Shown: piece by piece, positions 5,979 to 48,721 of the stretch
Layout of the letters: each line of letters starts with the position of its first letter
Numbering within the stretch: the stretch's first letter is position 1
NCBI GenBank assembly: GCA_021325295.1
Contig: JAJPHM010000036.1
Coordinates: 1 to 53,139 of the forward strand
Origin: Nitrososphaeraceae archaeon
Lineage (GTDB): Archaea > Thermoproteota > Nitrososphaeria > Nitrososphaerales > Nitrososphaeraceae
Direction: 5' to 3'
DNA: 53,139 nt
Position numbers and translations under genes: made by a program
The notes under the pieces: generated by a model
Databases searched by the model: none
Told to the model about the DNA's origin: nothing
The model's input: the letters and a program-made list of their open reading frames with translations, nothing else

Positions 5979-7646
5979 TTGGAAGAGCGCAATTACGATA
6001 ACCAATCTCATCCGGAAATTCCGCCAAGAGAGGTTTCAGATCAGGGCAAGTATAGCGACAAAATCAAAATAGTACCAATAAAAGAACACGCCAGAGACTC
6101 GAAGGTTCCGGCTTCTGCATGGAAGACTCTGGTCATTCTAAGCTCTATTGCTACAATGGTCATGTACACAGAGACCATGCTTGTTCCATCACTTCCAAAT
6201 ATCATACGCGAATTTGCTCTCCCGTACAGCGTTTCTCCTTGGATTCTAACCACATACCTTGTTGTAGGCGCCGTAATGACTCCTGTCGCAAGCAGTCTCG
6301 CAGAAATACACGGCAAGAAAAAAGTGCTCCTTGCGATAATGATGGTGTATTCTGCAGGGGTTCTGGCTGGCGGCCTTAGTACTGACTTTTTCAGCTTTGT
6401 TCTTGCAAGGGCAATGCAAGGAGTTGGCATGGCAATGTTTCCAATAGCTTTTAGCATAATCAGGGAGCAATTCCCAAAATCCCGTCTTGCAATAGGTCAG
6501 GGAATAATAACTTCAATGTTTGCCAGCGGGTCCATACTGGGCCTGATTGTGGGGGCCGCAATTGCAGAAAGTGCTGGATGGAAGATGACATTTCTTTCCA
6601 TCTTGCCGATAGCTATATTGCTTCCGGTTATTGTGTGGAGGTTTACAAAAATAGGAGCGGTTCATTCTGACTGGAACATTCAGCAGGCTGCTATTCGACC
6701 GCAAGATCCCAAAAACAAAGAAAACACAGATCCACAAGATACAAAGAAACAGAAGCAGCACCTCGATATACTTGGGGCAATAACTCTTGCGATAACGATA
6801 ACTTTGTTCTTGATCGTCCTTACGCTTATCGAAAGTTCCACTACAAATGCACGGTCATTTTCAGAACTTGTGATCTTGGCTTTAGGTTGTGCTCTGGCAT
6901 TTGCAGGATTTATTGTAGTCGAAAGGAGAGCAGAAAATCCAATAATCAATGCAAGTATATTGAGAAACAGGATCTTGCTTTTCACAAATTCTATGATGAT
7001 AATACTTGGATTTTCCATGTTCATGGTCTTCCAGACAATTCCCATACTGGCTGAAAGCCCCTCACCAGTTGGTTTTGGTGCAGGCATAACAGGCGCTGCA
7101 CAAATACAGCTTCCCTTCTCGATAATACTTTTGGTTTTCGGACCTACGTCTGGGTATATAGTATCAAAGCTCGGCTCCATAAGGCCTGCCATTTTGGGTT
7201 ATCTTGTCAATGCGCTGGGATTTTTCATAATTGCAGCGTTTCACTCCCAGCCTTGGATGATCTCTGTGGGCCTTGCTACAATTTCTACAGGGCTATCTCT
7301 TGGCAGCGTGGGCATAATGAATATAGTACTTCTGGCTACACCGCAGAAGAATATGGTGACTTCTGTTGGCATGACTTCTCTTCTGAGGATAGTTGGAAGC
7401 TCGATAGGTCCGGCTGTTTCCGGGGTCCTTATGCAGATACACCAAGTAAGCCTCAGCGGACATGCCGGCACTTTTCCCTCGTCTGAATCCTATACAACAA
7501 TTTTCCTAATAGCTGCGGTCATGTCAGTTATATCGGTCCTGATGGCATTAAAGATAAAGCAGGAAGTATCTGATAAGAGGAAAAATCAGACTGACCAGTT
7601 GCTTGCTGCAAGGTCTGGGAAAAGTGCAGGCAGGGAAGAGATATAG
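5979..7646 (+). CDS. MFS multidrug efflux transporter (DHA2/EmrB-QacA type)
   Basis: A 555-residue major facilitator of the 14-helix drug:H+ antiporter-2 group, starting with TTG. A polar cytoplasmic N-terminus of about 45 residues precedes helix 1. WILTTYLVVGAVMTPVASSLAEIHGKKKVLL contains the motif A loop (G-x-x-x-E-x-x-G-K-K), and later LARAMQGVGMAMFPIAFSIIREQFP is the motif B region, with the conserved Arg in helix 4. A hydrophilic insert around residues 225-260 separates the two halves. The upstream MarR gene, 12 bp away, suggests inducible export of toxic compounds. The substrate cannot be named. Confidence 0.85.
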   Translation: MEERNYDNQSHPEIPPREVSDQGKYSDKIKIVPIKEHARDSKVPASAWKTLVILSSIATMVMYTETMLVPSLPNIIREFALPYSVSPWILTTYLVVGAVMTPVASSLAEIHGKKKVLLAIMMVYSAGVLAGGLSTDFFSFVLARAMQGVGMAMFPIAFSIIREQFPKSRLAIGQGIITSMFASGSILGLIVGAAIAESAGWKMTFLSILPIAILLPVIVWRFTKIGAVHSDWNIQQAAIRPQDPKNKENTDPQDTKKQKQHLDILGAITLAITITLFLIVLTLIESSTTNARSFSELVILALGCALAFAGFIVVERRAENPIINASILRNRILLFTNSMMIILGFSMFMVFQTIPILAESPSPVGFGAGITGAAQIQLPFSIILLVFGPTSGYIVSKLGSIRPAILGYLVNALGFFIIAAFHSQPWMISVGLATISTGLSLGSVGIMNIVLLATPQKNMVTSVGMTSLLRIVGSSIGPAVSGVLMQIHQVSLSGHAGTFPSSESYTTIFLIAAVMSVISVLMALKIKQEVSDKRKNQTDQLLAARSGKSAGREEI

Positions 7647-7677
7647 ACTCTCAAATATGCACTGCCGGAAGAGCACA

Positions 7678-9180
7678 CTAGTCTGGAGGAGGACCTGCTT
7701 TACCACCTGCAAGCATTCTATCATACAGGTTCTCTGTATAGTATTTTTCATAAAATGAAACATGCTGGTCTTCTATATTCATCAGGTATTCATGTACCCT
7801 TTGTGCAGCTTCTCTTCCTGATGCCATTGCCTTCACTACAAGGCTGTCCCCAGTTGTCACATCGCCGCACGCAAAAACATTCTTGATCGATGTTTTGAAC
7901 TGATCTGTAATTTCTATCGAGCCTTTCTTACCTGTCTTTAACCCGGCCTCCTTGGTGAGAAAAGAGTTTGGAGATCTCCCTACTGCAAGAAGTACACTTG
8001 AGCAGACCATTTTAAACTCGCCGCCAGGTATTGGCTCCGGTTGCCTTCTTCCAGTTTCATCCGGGCCACCCAGCTGCATAGAGTTCATGACTGCAAACGC
8101 GACATGCTTGCTATCTCCGACTTTCGCTTTCCCCTCTTGCGCCTCGTAAGCCTTGGGCTCTGCCAGAAACAGGAACTTTACTCCCTCTTCTTTTGCCTCT
8201 TCGAGCATTATAGGATCAGCCGGCATATCATTTTCTGTCCTCCTGTATACGATGGTGACATTGCCCTGGCTTAGCCTCAATGCAGTCCGCGCGCAATCAA
8301 GTGCTGAATCCCCGCCGCCGATTACGATGATCTCCTTGCCTAGCTCAAACGTTGGGTTTTGCAAATAACTTTGTACACCATTGACAAATACATTTTCAAG
8401 AAAATTGTACCCATTGTATACGCCTTTGAGTTCAATTCCCGGAGTATCCAGCCTTGCAGGGTCTTTGGATCCTGTGGCGATTAAAATAGCATCATTATCG
8501 TCAAGCAGTCCAGAAAATGTCACATCTCTGCCCACTTTAAAACCGGTTTTTATCTCGATTCCCATTTCTTTTATCTTGTCAACTTCAGCCAGAAGCACAT
8601 CTTTGGGCAGGTGGTAATCAGGTATTCCGTACCATGCTGTCCCTCCAGCCTGCGGAAGTTCTTCATAAATGACTACATTGTGACCATATCTTTTGAGAAG
8701 CTCCGCTGCAGCCAAGCCTGCCGGACCGGCACCAATAACTGCCACATTCTTACCCGTGTTTGTGATAGTTGAAGGCGACTGCTGTCGATTTTTCCGTTCC
8801 CAGTCTGCCACATACCGCTGGATTAGCCCTATTCCTATTGGCTGACCTGCCCAGCGCAGCACGCAGGCGTCCTCGCAGAGGCCCTGAAGCTGTGGACAGC
8901 ACCTTGCAGTAACGCCGATAAGTGGGTTTGTTTCCCTTATGCGCTCATATGCAGTCTTGAAGTCCCCTCTAGCGACTGCCTCATTCATACCCCTGACATC
9001 TAGCAGGACAGGACATGCATCGATGCAAACCGGCGTCCCACATAGCAAGCAGCGGTTCGCCTCTTGCATGACCTGCTCTTCCGTGTAAGGCTGCTGGACT
9101 TCAGAGAAATCCTTCTTGCGCTGCTGAGGGTCGGATTTTTTAAAGGGAAAAGCGCCGACCCGGTTTGGCTCGACTTTCAT
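7678..9180 (-). CDS. GltD-like NAD(P)H-dependent oxidoreductase (glutamate synthase small subunit family)
   Basis: A 500-residue FAD/NAD(P)H and iron-sulfur protein. The N-terminal region has a Cys pattern CLLCGTPVCIDACP and a second set CCPQLQGLCEDACV, for the two [4Fe-4S] clusters of the GltD family. The FAD site GAGPAGLAAAELLKRYGHNVVIYE is near residue 150, the NAD(P)H site GGGDSALDCARTALRL near residue 290, and FACGDVTTGDS is the closing FAD motif. The ATG at 9180 is preferred over an in-frame codon at 9195 because a TATATTAT (9203-9210) lies 26 bp upstream. No GltB-type large subunit is nearby, so it may serve another electron carrier, as NfnB/SudA-like members do. Confidence 0.85.
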   Translation of the reverse strand: MKVEPNRVGAFPFKKSDPQQRKKDFSEVQQPYTEEQVMQEANRCLLCGTPVCIDACPVLLDVRGMNEAVARGDFKTAYERIRETNPLIGVTARCCPQLQGLCEDACVLRWAGQPIGIGLIQRYVADWERKNRQQSPSTITNTGKNVAVIGAGPAGLAAAELLKRYGHNVVIYEELPQAGGTAWYGIPDYHLPKDVLLAEVDKIKEMGIEIKTGFKVGRDVTFSGLLDDNDAILIATGSKDPARLDTPGIELKGVYNGYNFLENVFVNGVQSYLQNPTFELGKEIIVIGGGDSALDCARTALRLSQGNVTIVYRRTENDMPADPIMLEEAKEEGVKFLFLAEPKAYEAQEGKAKVGDSKHVAFAVMNSMQLGGPDETGRRQPEPIPGGEFKMVCSSVLLAVGRSPNSFLTKEAGLKTGKKGSIEITDQFKTSIKNVFACGDVTTGDSLVVKAMASGREAAQRVHEYLMNIEDQHVSFYEKYYTENLYDRMLAGGKAGPPPD

Positions 9181-10391: not shown

Positions 10392-11975
10392 TCAAGCCTT
10401 ACCATAGACTTTTATCGTCTGCATGCCACCAGACCTGTCTATCTTGTGCCAATGATGACTTTTCCCAAATATTGCCCTAAATGCAGAGACTATGGTTGTA
10501 TAGTCCAGAAACTGCTTGTATATTACTACAAAAAAGGGCGAGTACAGTGCAAGCTTGTATTTCTCGTTATCGATAGAAAGCGCAACCAGAGCAACGAAAA
10601 CCTGGACTGCAAGGAACAAAAGTTCCATCTTTAGAAATACTAGCAATCCTCCAGTGAGTGCAAGGTATATCCCAGCGCCCAGAGCAACAAAACTCGTTAT
10701 TGGATTGAACAAAGATAGCAGGATCATGGGGAAGACAAGCGAATGCAGCAGGCCATACCTTCTGTTCCAAATAGCATCTCTGTGTTTGAAGATTGTCTGG
10801 TACGTTCCGGTGCTCCAGCGCAATCTTTGCTTGTATAGGACTTTCCATGTTGATGGAACTTCTGTAAAACCAAGCCCTGTCGAGCTTGAACCCACTTGCA
10901 GCCCTGTTTTCAAAAGTTTGATAGTAAGGTCAAAATCCTCTGTCAGCGTGTCAGTATCGTACCCTCCAGCCTGAATAGTTTCGTTCCTCCTAAAGGCCCC
11001 GAAAGCCCCGGGCACCACCATTACGGATCCATACAACGCAAATGCCCTCCGTACCACGTTTATACCCATCATGTATTCCAGCTCCTGAATCCGGGTAATT
11101 GTCGATTTGCTGTTGAGTACCCTTATGTTCCCCGCAACAGCCGCCACCTTTTCGTCACCCATGATCCTGACTATTCTATCAATTGCTTCCCGTTCCACCA
11201 TGCTGTCAGAATCTATTGTTATTACTATCTCTCCCCGAGCAAAGAGCAGACCGTAATTTAGAGCCGAAGCCTTGCCGCCATTTGGCTTTCTCAGCACTTT
11301 TACCCCAAGCCGCTTGTACCACGAGGCAATTATTGAGGTCAGATCCGTAGAGCCATCATCGATTACAATTATCTCCTTGTTCTCGTATTTTAGGTTCATG
11401 AGGCTCTCAAGTGTTCTTGATATAACCTCCCCTTCATTGTACGCGGGAACAAGTATAGTTACAAGTGGTCTGTATGAGTATGAGTATGATTCACCGTCTT
11501 GTTGTCGGGATTCTTGAATTTTGAACATCATCGCAAGGGGTAGTGGAAACGTGCCAACGAATATTGAAATGCTAAAGCCCACGGTCATGATTATCCTCAG
11601 AAGTGTCTCAGCCGGTGGTCCCATGTAGCCCAGAGATGAAAGTATTAAAGACCCGACGAGCGGTGCCAGGGCAACAAGCAAAATAGGAGCAAGTCCCCTC
11701 TCTCTTCCAAGTTCCTTCCTTCTGATCTTTCTCTTTGACGTCCATAAAAGCCATAAAGTAGCAGAGAATGCACAACCTGCTGCCATGTACATATCTACTG
11801 TTCCTATCAAGTATATCAGCAAAAAAATAGAGCCGACAGCCACTGTGCTGAACAGTATCGTTGCGCGATTAATCTTTGTCTTTACCTTTACCTTTGTCTT
11901 GCCACTTGATGGTAGATGAGCATTTTCGCCCTTGACATCTGACCTCACCTCAATTGCTCTAGAATCATCTGTCAT
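10392..11975 (-). CDS. Processive family 2 glycosyltransferase (hyaluronan/cellulose synthase-like)
   Basis: Membrane glycosyltransferase that probably polymerises a beta-linked sugar from UDP-sugar and extrudes it. Numbering from an upstream GTG at 11996 (the ATG at 11975 is seven codons in), about four helices precede a GT-A domain with all key motifs: DDGSTD (213-218), DSDS for the metal-binding D-x-D (262-265), TED general base (352-354) and QRLRW (390-394), the Q-x-x-R-W motif of processive enzymes. About three to four helices follow. It lies 54 bp downstream of, and in line with, the TackOD1 gene, suggesting one operon and regulated exopolysaccharide synthesis. No PilZ domain is present. 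The polymer cannot be deduced. Confidence 0.87.
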   Translation of the reverse strand: MTDDSRAIEVRSDVKGENAHLPSSGKTKVKVKTKINRATILFSTVAVGSIFLLIYLIGTVDMYMAAGCAFSATLWLLWTSKRKIRRKELGRERGLAPILLVALAPLVGSLILSSLGYMGPPAETLLRIIMTVGFSISIFVGTFPLPLAMMFKIQESRQQDGESYSYSYRPLVTILVPAYNEGEVISRTLESLMNLKYENKEIIVIDDGSTDLTSIIASWYKRLGVKVLRKPNGGKASALNYGLLFARGEIVITIDSDSMVEREAIDRIVRIMGDEKVAAVAGNIRVLNSKSTITRIQELEYMMGINVVRRAFALYGSVMVVPGAFGAFRRNETIQAGGYDTDTLTEDFDLTIKLLKTGLQVGSSSTGLGFTEVPSTWKVLYKQRLRWSTGTYQTIFKHRDAIWNRRYGLLHSLVFPMILLSLFNPITSFVALGAGIYLALTGGLLVFLKMELLFLAVQVFVALVALSIDNEKYKLALYSPFFVVIYKQFLDYTTIVSAFRAIFGKSHHWHKIDRSGGMQTIKVYGKA

Positions 11976-12029
11976 TGTACAGGTCAACCAACACACTTAT
12001 TTTTTGTCAGTTAGGTATGCTAGGCTAGA

Positions 12030-13589
12030 TTAGGTTCCAACAGGAGGGACGTTCAGCCTTGCCAGTGCTTCGTCTATTGTCCTGCCCTCCACCAGATTTA
12101 TGTTAAAGCCAGCAGCATAATTGCGGACGCTGTCAGATGGTCCAGGGATAGCTACAATGAGAGATTCGCAGCCTATGTCACATATCTTTCCATAGACTCT
12201 GGTGATCTGCTCCAGTTCTACTTGGTTATTTGATACTATAATCTCCACGACCATGTTGTTTTTATTGCCATTGGAGTCAGCAGACATGGTGTAAGGGGAG
12301 CCTGATTCTGAACCGACCCCCTGCAAGCCACCCAAGATAAGGACATCAAAAACGTGCTGCGTTCCTGATCGGCCTATTACAAAAGCAGGCGAGACTACAG
12401 TGTAGCCAAGCGACCTGAAGTGTGCGGTGCAGGCTGCAATAGGCTTTATCTGCTCACCCAGCTTTTGTGCGGCGTGTTCGTTCAGGGTATATGCATATAG
12501 ATACTGCTCATTTTCTTCGTCAACCCCAAATGCAGCGCTGCATTCAGCACACTTCATGATTTGCAGCAAATCTTTGTTTCTCGAATTACATACAATGCAA
12601 ACATACATCTGCGACAGGTTTCGGTAGTCTGAACCTACCATATGCAGCTTGACATGGCACTTTGGGCACACAAGATCGCCACTTGGAGTCTGGAAGTGTT
12701 CCTGCCGCTCAACAAATCCACAGGCAAAGTGCTCCAATACGTTGTGTTTGCTCAAATTCATGGAATTGCATACAGGGCAGAGGTTCTTGAGTTGCACATT
12801 TGGAGAGTCGCATGATTTGCAGGTTAATATCTTGTCCGAGAGCTCTGAATCGAGCAGTCCCCGGCGTGTCAACGAATCAAGAATTTGCTTTAGTCTACCT
12901 GTGTCTAGATTAAGGGCAGCTGCACCCTCAAAAAAATACCCTTCTGGCTTTGTCAAATCTATTCGAGGAGTGATTTTGCTCACTCTGCCAAACAGAAACA
13001 GTTCCATTATAGTCCGCTCTTCTTTGCTCAGGGTATTTGTTGAAGATTTGGATTCACTGGCGTGTTCAATCCCATGGCCAGTGGGATAGTTGAGGATGCC
13101 TTCTTTTTCTTTCCTGTTTATGCTCTGGCTTGTAGTCTGAATGGGAACAGCAGTGCTGCCATTAGTAGAGATAGTGGCAGCCTCAATTTTTGGAGAGGCT
13201 GGTAATCCACTTGACTTCCTTTGCGAATTTTGAGATGAAAGGAATCGGCTAATGACAAAAGTGCCATATCCTGCCAAGATGCCAAGCTCGTACATGCCAA
13301 GCAGGGTAGCTAGTGCTGTCTGCTGAATATCACCATATACCATTGTCGAATACTGTGTATTTTTTATCAAGGAAATAAAGGCGGCAAATGGCGCAATACT
13401 GGATAATTGTGATTTGAAAACCACTGAACCATACCAGATAGCACCCCCAGAGCCTGTAGCCCATACAGTCAGAATCAACTCGCCTAACCTGTACTTTGAC
13501 ATTCTAACAGATGGAAGGCATATGCCAAAGGCAAATCCTACTGCCAGCATGACTGCAGGGGCAACAACCATCGACGGAATGTAGTTCAT
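12030..13589 (-). CDS. Membrane-anchored TackOD1 zinc-ribbon protein with Mrr-like C-terminal domain
   Basis: A 519-residue multidomain protein. Residues 7-117 hold about three to four membrane helices, then a Ser/Thr-rich linker to about 185. A winged-helix-like segment (190-252) leads into the cysteine-rich core: C257/C260, C271/C274, C290, C308/C311, C331/C334, C347/C350. The HFACGFV...LVCPKC...GSDYR pattern matches the thaumarchaeal output domain TackOD1, found at the end of archaeal signalling proteins. Residues 380-510 resemble a restriction-endonuclease-like (Mrr-type) fold: FDVLILGG, then VVEIIVSN, then an alpha/beta stretch ending in NLVEG. The position expected for the catalytic Lys (E-x-K) is Ile451, so the fold is probably not a nuclease but a sensor or binding module. 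It precedes the glycosyltransferase in the same direction. Confidence 0.75.
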   Translation of the reverse strand: MNYIPSMVVAPAVMLAVGFAFGICLPSVRMSKYRLGELILTVWATGSGGAIWYGSVVFKSQLSSIAPFAAFISLIKNTQYSTMVYGDIQQTALATLLGMYELGILAGYGTFVISRFLSSQNSQRKSSGLPASPKIEAATISTNGSTAVPIQTTSQSINRKEKEGILNYPTGHGIEHASESKSSTNTLSKEERTIMELFLFGRVSKITPRIDLTKPEGYFFEGAAALNLDTGRLKQILDSLTRRGLLDSELSDKILTCKSCDSPNVQLKNLCPVCNSMNLSKHNVLEHFACGFVERQEHFQTPSGDLVCPKCHVKLHMVGSDYRNLSQMYVCIVCNSRNKDLLQIMKCAECSAAFGVDEENEQYLYAYTLNEHAAQKLGEQIKPIAACTAHFRSLGYTVVSPAFVIGRSGTQHVFDVLILGGLQGVGSESGSPYTMSADSNGNKNNMVVEIIVSNNQVELEQITRVYGKICDIGCESLIVAIPGPSDSVRNYAAGFNINLVEGRTIDEALARLNVPPVGT

Positions 13590-14136: not shown

Positions 14137-14937
14137 ATGGCAATCTTTAAGATCATTCTTGCGCTGTCAACTATCGTTTTGTCCACGTTCATTTTATCTT
14201 TATCATCTATTCATGAAACAGCAGATTCCTCTCCATCGACAACATATACTGTACAACCAGGAGATTACCTCTACGAAATCGGACAAAAATTCGGTGTACC
14301 CTGGCATGACATAGCACAGGCAAACAATATTCAATCACCATACACAATATATCCCAGAGAGGTTCTTGTAATCCCACTATCCAACCAAAAAGACACAATT
14401 GCTACGGGCAATTCTGCGTATGATCAGTTTGACCCATATATCCTGAGTTCGTCGGTAAGTTATGACTATGCTGATCCAATGATGATAAAATCAATAATAG
14501 CCGTGGAATCGAGCTTTAACCCACAGGCAGTAAGCCCTGATAGCCCATGTGGTATACCTATAGGATGGATAGATTCTCAGAGCAGATCCTTTGGCTTGAT
14601 GCAGGTTACACCAGCATGCATACAACCACAAGCAGGACAGCCTGACCTTATCACAGATCCAAGTTCACCTAGCTGGTCTTATTCATGGTTCAACCCGCAG
14701 TACAATATTGCACAAGGAATAGAGGTGTTATCGGGCCAACTATCATATATGAAAAGCAAGTTTAATGCATGCACAAGCAACCAGTACATGCTCATGGCAG
14801 TGGGCGCATACAATGCCGGACAGGATGCAGTATATGGCTGTGGTTCTTGGAGTAATAGAGCCAATACGTACATCAACAATGTTTTGTCTCAGTACCAGAT
14901 CTTTGCACAAATGGCAGTAGGACCCTATCCTTATTGA
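14137..14937 (+). CDS. Secreted LysM + SLT-type lytic transglycosylase
   Basis: A 266-residue exported protein that should cleave peptidoglycan glycan strands. Residues 1-24 form a signal peptide (I chose the ATG at 14137 over a TTG at 14071 because it gives one). LysM at about 36-80 (YTVQPGDYLYEIGQKFGV, ending in VLVIP) binds GlcNAc polymers. The goose-lysozyme-like SLT domain at about 110-255 has the catalytic Glu124 in AVESSFNP, SFGLMQV at 151-157 and AYNAG at 224-228, all expected for family 1 lytic transglycosylases. Extra cysteines suggest disulfides outside the cell. This archaeal lineage has no murein, so the target is likely bacterial: antagonism, feeding or defence. Base composition looks like the surroundings. 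Confidence 0.85.
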   Translation: MAIFKIILALSTIVLSTFILSLSSIHETADSSPSTTYTVQPGDYLYEIGQKFGVPWHDIAQANNIQSPYTIYPREVLVIPLSNQKDTIATGNSAYDQFDPYILSSSVSYDYADPMMIKSIIAVESSFNPQAVSPDSPCGIPIGWIDSQSRSFGLMQVTPACIQPQAGQPDLITDPSSPSWSYSWFNPQYNIAQGIEVLSGQLSYMKSKFNACTSNQYMLMAVGAYNAGQDAVYGCGSWSNRANTYINNVLSQYQIFAQMAVGPYPY

Positions 14938-28239: not shown

Positions 28240-30384
28240 TCAGGCTGTATTTTCATCAGCTACAGTTTGTCCTACAATACAACCTGAGCTGCTATCCGGT
28301 TTCTTTGCTGTAATGCCTCCTTCTTGTCGCCGTGGCTGGATTAGGGTATTGTAAGGAATAGTATTACCCTGTCTTGTCTTGACCATCAGGCTCTGGCTTG
28401 TTGATCCATCCCTTTCAACAGTAACAAGGCCGATGTTGTTTGCTGCAATAACAAGCTGGGGGATAGCGGACCTTGTGCTGATAATTGACCAGCTAGCAGA
28501 CCAGTCAAGACTTGTCTTTCTATAATTATTTTGGATGATACCCTCATCATTATAGTTGGTGGCATCCTGCGGCAGACTGGGGATTGCGACATGTATCGTG
28601 CCCTTTGCAGCAGATGGCTTCCGAGACAGAATCTGGCGCAAATGACCCAGCACCTTGCCCAGAGCCACCTCTTTTCCAAGGCTGGTGGCCTTTAAAGCAC
28701 TGCTATTTAGCTGTGCTACTTCTAAGGAGATATCGCTTTCCTGAATTGAAAATTTTGCCTTGATGGTAAAACCATAATGAACATCTCCAGAGAGAAATAT
28801 GCACTGTCTTGGCGCAAGAGCTGTGGCGATATGTGATAGAAACTTTACAAAGCCGGTCCTGTTTGCCGACCAAGTTTCAAGATCAACTGAATAAACGTTA
28901 GTAAACCTAGCCAGAAACTGCTGGATTTTTTCGACAAGGTCAAAACCAAATACCGGTGTCGGCACAACAACTATTATCTGATCACCTTTCACATAGTTGC
29001 CCTGAGTTGCTGCTCTTACAAGCGACTGCAGCGCATCGTCGCTTGCAAGCTGCGCAGGACCACTAAAGCTGTCGTACTTGCGCTGTGTACGGCAGTCAAG
29101 AAACACTGTCAGTGGCGACGTTGGGCAGCTGAATGTCCAGTTATGAAAGCCCAGTATATGATTTATGAATAAAGCAGAATCTGCCTTCGAGTTTTCTTTA
29201 TTGGCAAGGTATTTTGTGGTCTTGGAAATAAAATCCTCACTAAACTGGGCAGGATCATTGCCCCAGGCTTGAAATGCCCAGTATGCTGCAAGTCCATTTG
29301 CTATCACTTGGTTGCCAAATTTGCTCTTTGAAACATTCTGCTGCCATTCCATGGATATATTCCAGTCGTCGGTTATGTCATGGTCATCGCAGATCATGTA
29401 TGTAGGAATATTGGCAAGGGCCCGCCTTATCTTCAAAAGCGAGCTTTTAGCGCTTTCTAGTTGCTCAACTTCGACTTCATATTTTCTTTTTCTCCTCTGT
29501 TTACCTCCAGAAGCAGCTGGAAAGCCTGCCGGCCAGTTCTCTGCATTCCACGCTACCAAGTACATTGCTGCAAATTCTCCAAATGAAAGGAGATGGTTAC
29601 CTGCATGGCCTGACGTGAATCCGGCGCTCTTTGCAATTTCCTTGCGTCCTCCCACAGGTATTTCACTCAACCTCGCATTGATTCCGTTGATCTTCTCTTC
29701 GTAGCCGAGCAGTCTTGACCCAAGCCCAGTTATGTGCAGGATAAGAGCATCTGAAACGTCGTCAGCATATATCTGGTCTCCTGTCATAAACAGAGCGCTT
29801 GGCCTTTTGCTCAGATCTATGACAGAGGCAGATATCAGATCGTCAGCCACTTCCAGACAATCCTTTCCCTTTCCATGAAGTTTGCGACAAGATCCATGGA
29901 GTATATTCAGGGGACTATTTTTGCTCTTGATAAAAAAAGTAGGAAGTGACAAGCCCTGAGCAGCATACACTATTGAATTCTTTCCTTCAACAAGTCCAAG
30001 GCTTTTCAAATTTCGGGTCACGCCGGACCGTCCGTCTGTTTCAGCAATTTCTATGTCATATGCAAGAAGCGTATCAGATGGAAAATGAGCTCGGGAATTA
30101 TCGGTGCCTGCTGTGATAGGCCTTGCTATTACAAGCAGTATGTGCAGGTTCTTGCCTAGCTGCAGAGATTTTGAAAGGCCTGTGCCTGCTAAAACAGGTT
30201 TGCTGAAAGCCTCAATGCTATCGATTGATGTTGCTGAACCTTGGAAGGCAAATATATTAGCTCTGGCAGTTACAGGCATGCTGCATGCCATCCAGATGCA
30301 TACCTGAGACGGCTCTACTCTACGTAGAATCGGGCCAGCAAGTATTGCGGGCAGAGCGCGCTCTGCAGCATTGGATTTTTCCAA
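28240..30384 (-). CDS. PhoD-like metallophosphatase
   Basis: A 714-residue cytoplasmic-looking phosphatase of the PhoD-like superfamily. An N-terminal domain of about 150 residues precedes the catalytic part. Metal-site motifs in order: LHGSCRK, FMTGDQIYADD, MICDDHDITDDWN, and FLSGDVHYGF near the C-terminal third. The insertion with FSCPTSPLTVFLDCRTQRKYDSF is also typical of this branch. No signal peptide is visible, so it may act on internal phosphoesters or polyanions rather than as a secreted alkaline phosphatase. Monocistronic, as far as can be seen. Confidence 0.83.
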   Translation of the reverse strand: MEKSNAAERALPAILAGPILRRVEPSQVCIWMACSMPVTARANIFAFQGSATSIDSIEAFSKPVLAGTGLSKSLQLGKNLHILLVIARPITAGTDNSRAHFPSDTLLAYDIEIAETDGRSGVTRNLKSLGLVEGKNSIVYAAQGLSLPTFFIKSKNSPLNILHGSCRKLHGKGKDCLEVADDLISASVIDLSKRPSALFMTGDQIYADDVSDALILHITGLGSRLLGYEEKINGINARLSEIPVGGRKEIAKSAGFTSGHAGNHLLSFGEFAAMYLVAWNAENWPAGFPAASGGKQRRKRKYEVEVEQLESAKSSLLKIRRALANIPTYMICDDHDITDDWNISMEWQQNVSKSKFGNQVIANGLAAYWAFQAWGNDPAQFSEDFISKTTKYLANKENSKADSALFINHILGFHNWTFSCPTSPLTVFLDCRTQRKYDSFSGPAQLASDDALQSLVRAATQGNYVKGDQIIVVVPTPVFGFDLVEKIQQFLARFTNVYSVDLETWSANRTGFVKFLSHIATALAPRQCIFLSGDVHYGFTIKAKFSIQESDISLEVAQLNSSALKATSLGKEVALGKVLGHLRQILSRKPSAAKGTIHVAIPSLPQDATNYNDEGIIQNNYRKTSLDWSASWSIISTRSAIPQLVIAANNIGLVTVERDGSTSQSLMVKTRQGNTIPYNTLIQPRRQEGGITAKKPDSSSGCIVGQTVADENTA

Positions 30385-47389: not shown

Positions 47390-47632
47390 CTAGCTTTAGA
47401 ATAGAGTAGAGTAGGTTAGTGTAGGGTAGCCAGCGTAAAATTGAAGATATCGCAAATTATTCATCCATTATGATAAATCTGCAATCATGGTTTTTCCTTT
47501 GATCCATCATTCTTCTGACCTTCTCCCGGCTTGGGTTATCTTACTCGATACTGAGCAGAGTGGCAGAATGTCACTATAGATCTGACTAGCATTTTCTTTA
47601 AATGCTCTTCTAGAAGACACTTCTTGAAGTAC
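47390..47632. other. Gap with TAG-rich degenerate repeat and promoter
   Basis: Bases about 47399-47431 form a degenerate run of TAG/GTAG words. CTTTAAATG (47596-47604) is the likely TATA box of the downstream hydrolase gene, about 32 bp before its ATG at 47633. Confidence 0.4.
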
Positions 47633-48721
47633 ATGTCTTGGATTCTATCGAACAGGATTATCATCTCCTCTGCAATTTCTCTCTTGGCTCTGATGCTTGT
47701 ACTCTCTACAGTTTCTGCAAATTCATACCATGCAAAGGCTGCAACCCCTACTGCAGCAACAGGGATTATTGTTCCTCTCTATACTTATCCGGGTTCTGCT
47801 TGGACTACCCTAGTCCAGACTAAAAACGCAAACCCTGCTGTGCCGGTAGTCGCAATAATAAACCCAAACAGTGGTCCCGGAGTATCTTCAGACACAAATT
47901 ATGTCACAGGTATTCGAAACCTGCAGGCAGCCAACATAGTAGTATTAGGCTATGTCTATACAGGCTATGGTTCAAGAAGCACTTCGGCGGTCGAGGCTGA
48001 TATTAACAGCTACTCTAGCTGGTATCATGTAAACGGGATATTCTTCGACGAGATGTCAAACAAGGACGGATACCAGGGCTATTATTCTAACCTGAATAAC
48101 TATGTCAAGTCAATTGGCATGGCATTTACTGTAGGCAATCCGGGAGCCGATACCCTGCCAAGCTATATCGGGACAGTCGATAATATCATAATTTATGAAA
48201 ATGCTGGCCTTCCACCTCTGTCATACCTGGGAGGATGGCACACAAGCTATGACAAGAAGAACTTTTCCTTCCTTTCTTACGCAGATCCTAGCTTGGACAC
48301 AAGCTATGTTGCAAGCGCATCCAGCGGCGCAGGGTACGTGTATATAACGAATGACAATTTGCCAAATCCCTGGGACACACTGCCACCATATTTTGGCAGC
48401 CTGGTGTCAGCTGTCGGGGTTGCCGATTCTGGAAGCTCCGCAGGTCCTCCGCCGGCTCACTATACAGTTACTGTCAAGTCGGCCAACCTTCAAGGTGTGC
48501 TGTTTGGTGGAATGTTTACTATAGTAAAACGGGATAGTGTAACAGTGCAAACAGGGTATACACCACTGTCATTTGCTGCAAAGCAAGGGTCAACATATGA
48601 TGTGACAGTTCTGAATTATAGGCAGCATATCTTTGATCACTGGGACAACGGAAGCAAAAACCCTTCCCGCACAATCACACCTAGCCAGAGTATAACACTG
48701 GTGGCTTATTACAGGAATTGA
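47633..48721 (+). CDS. Exported spherulin-4-like glycoside hydrolase
   Basis: 362 residues from the ATG at 47633 (a TTG three codons earlier is possible). A signal peptide (about 1-36) is followed by a TIM-barrel domain of the spherulin-4 family (about 45-275): GIIVPLYTYPGSAWTTLV, VPVVAIINPNSGPG, IVVLGYVYTGYGSRS, NGIFFDEMSNKDGY with adjacent Asp-Glu at about residues 139-140, and IIIYENAG. The family includes Sph3-type (GH135) hydrolases that cut N-acetylgalactosamine-rich exopolysaccharide. A Pro-rich hinge leads to a C-terminal beta domain (about 285-362) ending FDHWDNGSKNPSRTITPSQSITLVAYY, a carbohydrate-binding or wall-repeat type. Likely acts on biofilm polysaccharide outside the cell. 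Confidence 0.82.
   Translation: MSWILSNRIIISSAISLLALMLVLSTVSANSYHAKAATPTAATGIIVPLYTYPGSAWTTLVQTKNANPAVPVVAIINPNSGPGVSSDTNYVTGIRNLQAANIVVLGYVYTGYGSRSTSAVEADINSYSSWYHVNGIFFDEMSNKDGYQGYYSNLNNYVKSIGMAFTVGNPGADTLPSYIGTVDNIIIYENAGLPPLSYLGGWHTSYDKKNFSFLSYADPSLDTSYVASASSGAGYVYITNDNLPNPWDTLPPYFGSLVSAVGVADSGSSAGPPPAHYTVTVKSANLQGVLFGGMFTIVKRDSVTVQTGYTPLSFAAKQGSTYDVTVLNYRQHIFDHWDNGSKNPSRTITPSQSITLVAYYRN

Follow-up and report, generated by a model that had tools for sequence, protein, structure and literature searches.

Why would a soil ammonia-oxidising archaeon that makes no murein of its own carry a gene for an enzyme of the type that cleaves it? The question is raised by a gene at positions 14137..14937 (+ strand) of the window, by which we mean the whole stretch of DNA analysed, an entire contig (C59) of 53,139 bases from a Nitrososphaeraceae genome that is 99.7% complete. 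The original prediction saw in it a peptidoglycan-cleaving enzyme, probably used on bacteria rather than on the host's own surface.

The gene, its protein and its host

The ORF runs from an ATG start to a TGA stop, with an in-frame TTG 66 bases upstream of the ATG, and encodes a protein of 266 aa (P0001) that combines a LysM domain with an SLT domain of the GH23 type. It is the sole SLT gene and the sole LysM gene in the genome. Its hydrophobic N-terminus (residues 1-28; 14137..14220, +), a probable export signal or membrane anchor, contains a stretch of about 20 residues with a mean Kyte-Doolittle value above 2 near residues 1-22. On this hydropathy profile, the signal peptide proposed at the outset is likely. 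Next come the LysM domain, a glycan-binding module (residues 37-80; 14245..14376, +; PF01476, 52 bits, E 6.5e-14), and the SLT/GH23 catalytic domain (residues 112-232; 14470..14832, +; PF01464, 54-55 bits, E 1.3e-14). Both matches lie far above the curated Pfam cut-offs; that for SLT is 21.3 bits, and P0001 scores 54.2.

The set of SLT/GH23 motifs (Glu in the ES motif, GLMQ and AYN-G) is intact, as had been claimed together with the LysM domain. The presumed catalytic acid, Glu124 in VESSFNP (codon 14506..14508, +), is invariant in alignments of archaeal relatives and falls at the position of the catalytic Glu in both goose lysozyme and MltC. GLMQ (residues 153-156; 14593..14604, +) is likewise invariant, as are the Tyr, Asn and Gly of AYNAG (residues 224-228; 14806..14820, +). 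P0001 has four Cys, two of which flank GLMQ (138 and 161) and two of which lie further on (212 and 235); all are kept in the relatives from genomes G026 and G041, which suggests disulfides and hence an extracellular life of the protein.

Several observations place the gene in an archaeon. It is surrounded by archaeal-type genes, such as those for a TackOD1 protein and a mannosyl-3-phosphoglycerate synthase, and an orthologue 61% identical to P0001 is found in G026, a Nitrososphaeraceae genome assembled as a single contig. Comparison of the two copies gave pN 0.22 and pS 0.70 (0.20 and 0.67 for the catalytic part); the ratio, about 0.13, is a rough value since dS is near saturation. The gene is thus under purifying selection. 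Bacterial contamination as its source is ruled out by the archaeal flanks and by this orthologue, because a selected copy in a single-contig genome marks the gene as archaeal. In base composition it differs little from its surroundings (GC 42.5% vs 43.8% in the window), with a GC3 of 39% slightly under the 43-49% of its neighbours. We also searched for the PBP transpeptidase domain PF00905, which was absent from all seven genomes tested, namely that of the window and six relatives carrying either the SLT family or a LysM-3D analogue; 10 of 14 control genomes were positive. By this test the host has no murein of its own, in agreement with the premise of the original prediction.

Relatives, fold and origin

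A profile built from the alignment of the archaeal catalytic domains was used to search 400 genomes of the order. Ten were positive, seven of them strongly (>95 bits): G000 (the window's genome), G026, G041, G282, G406, G411 and G316. G151 gave a weak match (35.6 bits). Of the 70 genomes of the window's family (f1), only 3 carry the SLT family. Matches in G192 and G220 were left out of the count on account of their bacterial or phage-like look; these two loci (G192:C327 and G220:C5; L008 and L006) may be contaminants in MAGs assigned to family f2.

In a second family, f12, two genomes carry several paralogues, four in G282 and five in G406. Their architectures vary (SLT followed by one or two LysM domains, three LysM domains followed by SLT, or SLT alone), and the majority begin, as P0001 does, with the motif I[AS]TGN..xDQ[YF]D or one of its variants. 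One f12 LysM is identical to that of P0001 at 33 of 45 positions, which is as near as the orthologue's own LysM. Elsewhere, SLT is joined to CBM32-like F5/8C and Big_7 domains (G041) or forms the C-terminal, SLT-like part of a 1008-aa protein that also contains phosphoesterase and chitobiase-type domains (G316; 132 bits, with the archaeal profile only); in the latter the third motif is lost, reading AHRNS in place of AYNAG. The G411 copies carry in-frame stops. In G042, F5/8C (CBM32) and LysM are joined to a 3D domain instead, and further 3D genes occur in G029 (two F5/8C (CBM32)-3D genes) and G021 (one). Judged by sequence, the window's SLT domain belongs to an archaeal cluster with shuffled modules (LysM, CBM32, Big_7 and phosphatase).

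We also noted that the secreted proteins with 3D domains (L089/L091 in G029, L088 in G021 and L005 in G042), most of which have CBM32, display MltA-like QGSG and DTG-I-GKH-D-YTG motifs and would constitute a second lytic-transglycosylase-like family in murein-free Nitrososphaeraceae. G041 additionally encodes a secreted protein with LysM and a GH26-type glycosidase domain (L078:6638-7969).

For the SLT domain, an AlphaFold model built from a 12-row alignment reached a pLDDT of 77 and a pTM of 0.75, with low confidence in the insert and loops around the active site; an earlier 3-row model (pLDDT 55) was unusable alone. All top PDB matches to the model were lysozyme-fold proteins, with goose-type lysozymes ranking best (1gbs, E 7e-4, TM 0.56), followed by MltE, MltC, MltF and a Ralstonia GH23 chitinase. 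A family profile search likewise placed a goose-type lysozyme first (3gxk, 3.4e-15), with MltC at 4e-15. The catalytic Glu and the GW-D...FGLMQ segment of goose-type lysozymes align with P0001, whereas overall identity is only about 20-24% and P0001 has a fused LysM. Goose lysozyme has an extra Asp pair, Asp86 and Asp97, which we take to position water in the hydrolase. P0001 has Asp146 at the first of these positions (kept in G026, not in G041) and Thr158 at the second, after GLMQV. Because of this Thr, both lysozyme-like hydrolysis and lytic transglycosylation may be the reaction catalysed.

With the bacterial enzymes MltC, MltD, MltE and Slt70, P0001 has in common the SLT domain, the Glu and the GLMQ/AYNAG motifs; MltD also bears LysM. 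It differs from these lytic transglycosylases by an extra insert with four Cys, and scores far under the NCBIfam equivalog cut-offs (32 against 375 bits for MltC; about 28, or 27.7, against 508 bits for MltD). The Ralstonia GH23 chitinase (3w6b-3w6f) is an extracellular glycan cleaver of the same family and fold, with a weaker match (profile E 2e-4, TM 0.41-0.45). Architecture and motifs are thus those of a peptidoglycan cleaver, as originally proposed, but the enzyme may be a lysozyme-like hydrolase rather than a transglycosylase, goose-type lysozymes being the best match.

A horizontal origin had also been suggested. In whole-protein tblastn searches, P0001 had no plasmid match, and the phage sequences recovered were only LysM pieces of Streptomyces phage endolysins (at most 57% over 44 aa), so that a phage or plasmid origin was rejected. 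Scans with short peptides found no SLT relatives in viral contigs, and a scan of genome contigs with two patterns from the window protein (LMQ[VFI]TPAC and [WI][FY]NP[QN][YK]NI) confirmed no bacterial donor; as such scans require near-exact matches, absence is weak evidence here. The same kind of scan with f12 sequences returned archaeal MAGs only. In a small tree with five outside rows, the archaeal SLT domains lie to one side of a modestly supported branch (80/76), and no donor is indicated. Horizontal acquisition long ago is plausible, but every direct relative recovered is archaeal, and neither a bacterial nor a viral donor emerged from these searches.

Bacterial peptidoglycan as the proposed target

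Our best reading, to which we give a probability of about 0.48, is that P0001 is an exported LysM-GH23 cleaver of murein-type glycan aimed at bacterial peptidoglycan. The N-terminus would carry the protein across the membrane and the LysM domain would bind GlcNAc-containing glycan. With Glu124 serving as general acid, and probably with two disulfides, the lysozyme-fold domain would then cleave the beta-1,4 linkages between MurNAc and GlcNAc in the peptidoglycan of bacteria, outside the archaeal cell. What the archaeon would gain is antagonism of nearby bacteria or nutrients freed from bacterial walls; both, as originally put forward, are plausible roles.

This reading is favoured because a catalytic SLT and a wall-binding LysM domain, each well over its Pfam cut-off, stand in one protein, because the catalytic motifs are kept in archaeal relatives under purifying selection, and because the closest relatives of known structure are goose-type lysozymes, MltC and MltE. 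The host, moreover, lacks a murein crosslinking enzyme of its own, and the sister genomes G042, G029 and G021 fill the same slot with 3D, another murein domain of the lytic-transglycosylase type; murein is the substrate common to the SLT and 3D folds. Finally, the patchy distribution and the bursts of paralogues in G282 and G406 resemble those of the weaponised hydrolases described in Strock et al, 2025 (PLoS Biol, PMC12352652). Against it, neither LysM, which can bind chitin, nor GH23, which includes chitinases, is specific for murein; genes for immunity, toxin delivery or muropeptide uptake were not observed next to the SLT gene; the model has its low confidence precisely at the active-site insert; and the GT2 neighbourhood and co-distribution described below favour a role on the host's own glycan.

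That archaea can encode peptidoglycan hydrolases as such is already known. According to PMC12352652, modular peptidoglycan hydrolases, defined as proteins with at least one Pfam murein-cleaving and at least one wall-binding domain, occur in 175 of 3,706 archaeal genomes, and three archaeal enzymes were shown to kill. With SLT plus LysM, P0001 falls within this definition, and like those enzymes, which are often exported, it joins a catalytic to a wall-binding domain in a family that is patchy in archaea; its hydrophobic N-terminus would suit export. The focal pair there, Woldo and Danwoldo of Halogranum salarium, differ from P0001 in being M23 peptidases with PG-binding-1 domains, and Nitrososphaeria go unnamed in the main text (PMC12352652). 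Metcalf et al, 2014 (eLife, PMC4241558) described an antibacterial GH25 enzyme from Aciduliprofundum boonei, likewise of the muramidase type and in a murein-free archaeon; its fold is unrelated, and it was traced there to horizontal transfer from bacteria, whereas no donor was found for P0001. The literature that we searched, of partial coverage, contained no report of the SLT family in ammonia-oxidising archaea. The interest lies in the distinct archaeal subfamily and its unexpected synthase neighbour. Ammonia-oxidising archaea are abundant in soils and usually viewed as inoffensive autotrophs. If P0001 cuts murein, some of them can attack or mine bacteria with a distinct enzyme subfamily, which bears on competition among nitrifiers.

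The neighbouring synthase and other possible targets

Close to the SLT gene lie two genes on the opposite strand. The first encodes a processive GT2 glycosyltransferase resembling PgaC and NodC (10392..11996, −; TIGR03937 PgaC_IcaA, 211 bits), and the second a membrane protein with TackOD1, the thaumarchaeal output domain (12030..13589, −; PF18551, 126 bits). The GT2 score of 210.9 bits is below the PgaC equivalog cut-off of 422.3, and NodC is also among the best matches, so we regard the protein as a putative PgaC-like synthase of an amino-sugar polymer. At least three archaeal genomes, namely G000, G026 and G406, have the TackOD1-GT2 pair, which resembles a conserved module for exopolysaccharide. 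Identity to the window copies is 73-74% (G026), 54% (G282) and 52% (G406) for GT2, and 57% (G026) and 39% (G406) for TackOD1.

The original prediction held self-remodelling to be unlikely. This stands for murein, but turnover of the host's own GlcNAc-type exopolysaccharide is a serious rival, because the SLT gene adjoins GT2 in two genera and GT2 tracks the SLT family. Here P0001 would trim or release the polymer made by the adjacent GT2, for biofilm turnover or dispersal, and we regard this as a real possibility. PgaB, BcsZ and AlgL play such a part beside bacterial exopolysaccharide synthases. The window has the SLT gene on the TackOD1 side of the pair and G026 on the GT2 side, where it is convergent at a distance of about 50 bases; adjacency has outlived a rearrangement of gene order, which hints at a functional link. 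Among the genomes of f1 and f12, a GT2 match of at least 350 bits was found in five of six SLT-positive and in none of 73 SLT-negative genomes (Fisher p 2.7e-7; 1.8e-5 in f1 alone), values that are uncorrected for kinship and rest on a line set after the scores had been seen; a 300-bit line in f1 gave p 1.8e-4. Within f1, the strongest GT2 matches come from exactly those three genomes that carry SLT. A GT2 paralogue of G406 is followed on the same strand by a secreted LysM protein (L079:10110-11453), in which Pfam found no GH18 match, only the motif 'NGYNIDFEPS' being reminiscent of that family. A broader enrichment of biofilm and EPS genes in Nitrososphaerales (PMC7554672) fits the same role.

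Other observations weigh against cleavage of the host's own coat. No LysM gene was seen near the GT2 loci of G282, G041, G032, G034 and G008 or near two in G406; conversely, G411 has SLT remnants and G042 a LysM-3D analogue without GT2, and the independent events are few. Polymers of the PgaC type are beta-1,6-linked, whereas the bonds known to be cut by lysozyme-fold enzymes are beta-1,4; this role therefore requires a beta-1,4 product of GT2, as in NodC or chitin. The fuller scenario, in which a lysozyme-fold family diversified within Nitrososphaerales and was recruited to cleave the amino-sugar exopolysaccharide of the adjacent PgaC/NodC-like synthase, so that a murein-type enzyme would serve a coat that contains no murein, is slightly more tentative. 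If the host's own coat is cut, the enzyme offers a handle on the chemistry of archaeal biofilms, of which little is known, and the SLT-GT2 gene pair makes the choice between this coat and murein directly testable.

A general scavenger of GlcNAc polymers, taking nitrogen or carbon from fungal or arthropod chitin or from other environmental amino-sugar polymers, appears improbable. It would account for the GH23 chitinase structures among the matches and for the arrangement in G316, where the SLT-like domain is fused to both a phosphoesterase and a C-terminal domain of chitobiase type and the adjacent gene encodes a phosphoesterase with a polysaccharide deacetylase. It is also in line with the G282 locus, where a LysM x3-SLT gene (L073:8731-9831) is followed on the same strand by a LysM x2 gene (L073:10271-11761) with a sub-threshold GH18 match (24 bits against a cut-off of 29.6), and with a secreted Spherulin4/GH135-type protein encoded on the window itself (47624-48721, +; PF12138, 166 bits). 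Enzymes of the GH135 family act on the polymers of fungal walls. However, ammonia oxidisers are autotrophs with few such polymer-degrading enzymes, genes for GlcNAc uptake were not seen next to the SLT gene, and the goose-lysozyme-like features suit murein at least equally.

A binding protein or remnant without useful catalysis, as the lost third motif in G316 and the stops in G411 might suggest, is very unlikely for P0001, since both the window copy and that of G026 retain every motif and are under purifying selection.

Among minor observations, secreted GH135 proteins have been reported in Gagatemarchaeaceae (PMC10640624). The two adjacent genes of G316 (L110:9266-12292 and 6183-8990, −) encode large secreted proteins, the first with the phosphoesterase, chitobiase-type and degenerate SLT domains, the second with the phosphoesterase and polysaccharide deacetylase, and their combination suggests scavenging of phosphate or wall polymers. 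On the window, a 714-aa ORF (28240-30384, −) has a weak Pfam match (31 bits) to PhoD-like phosphatases.
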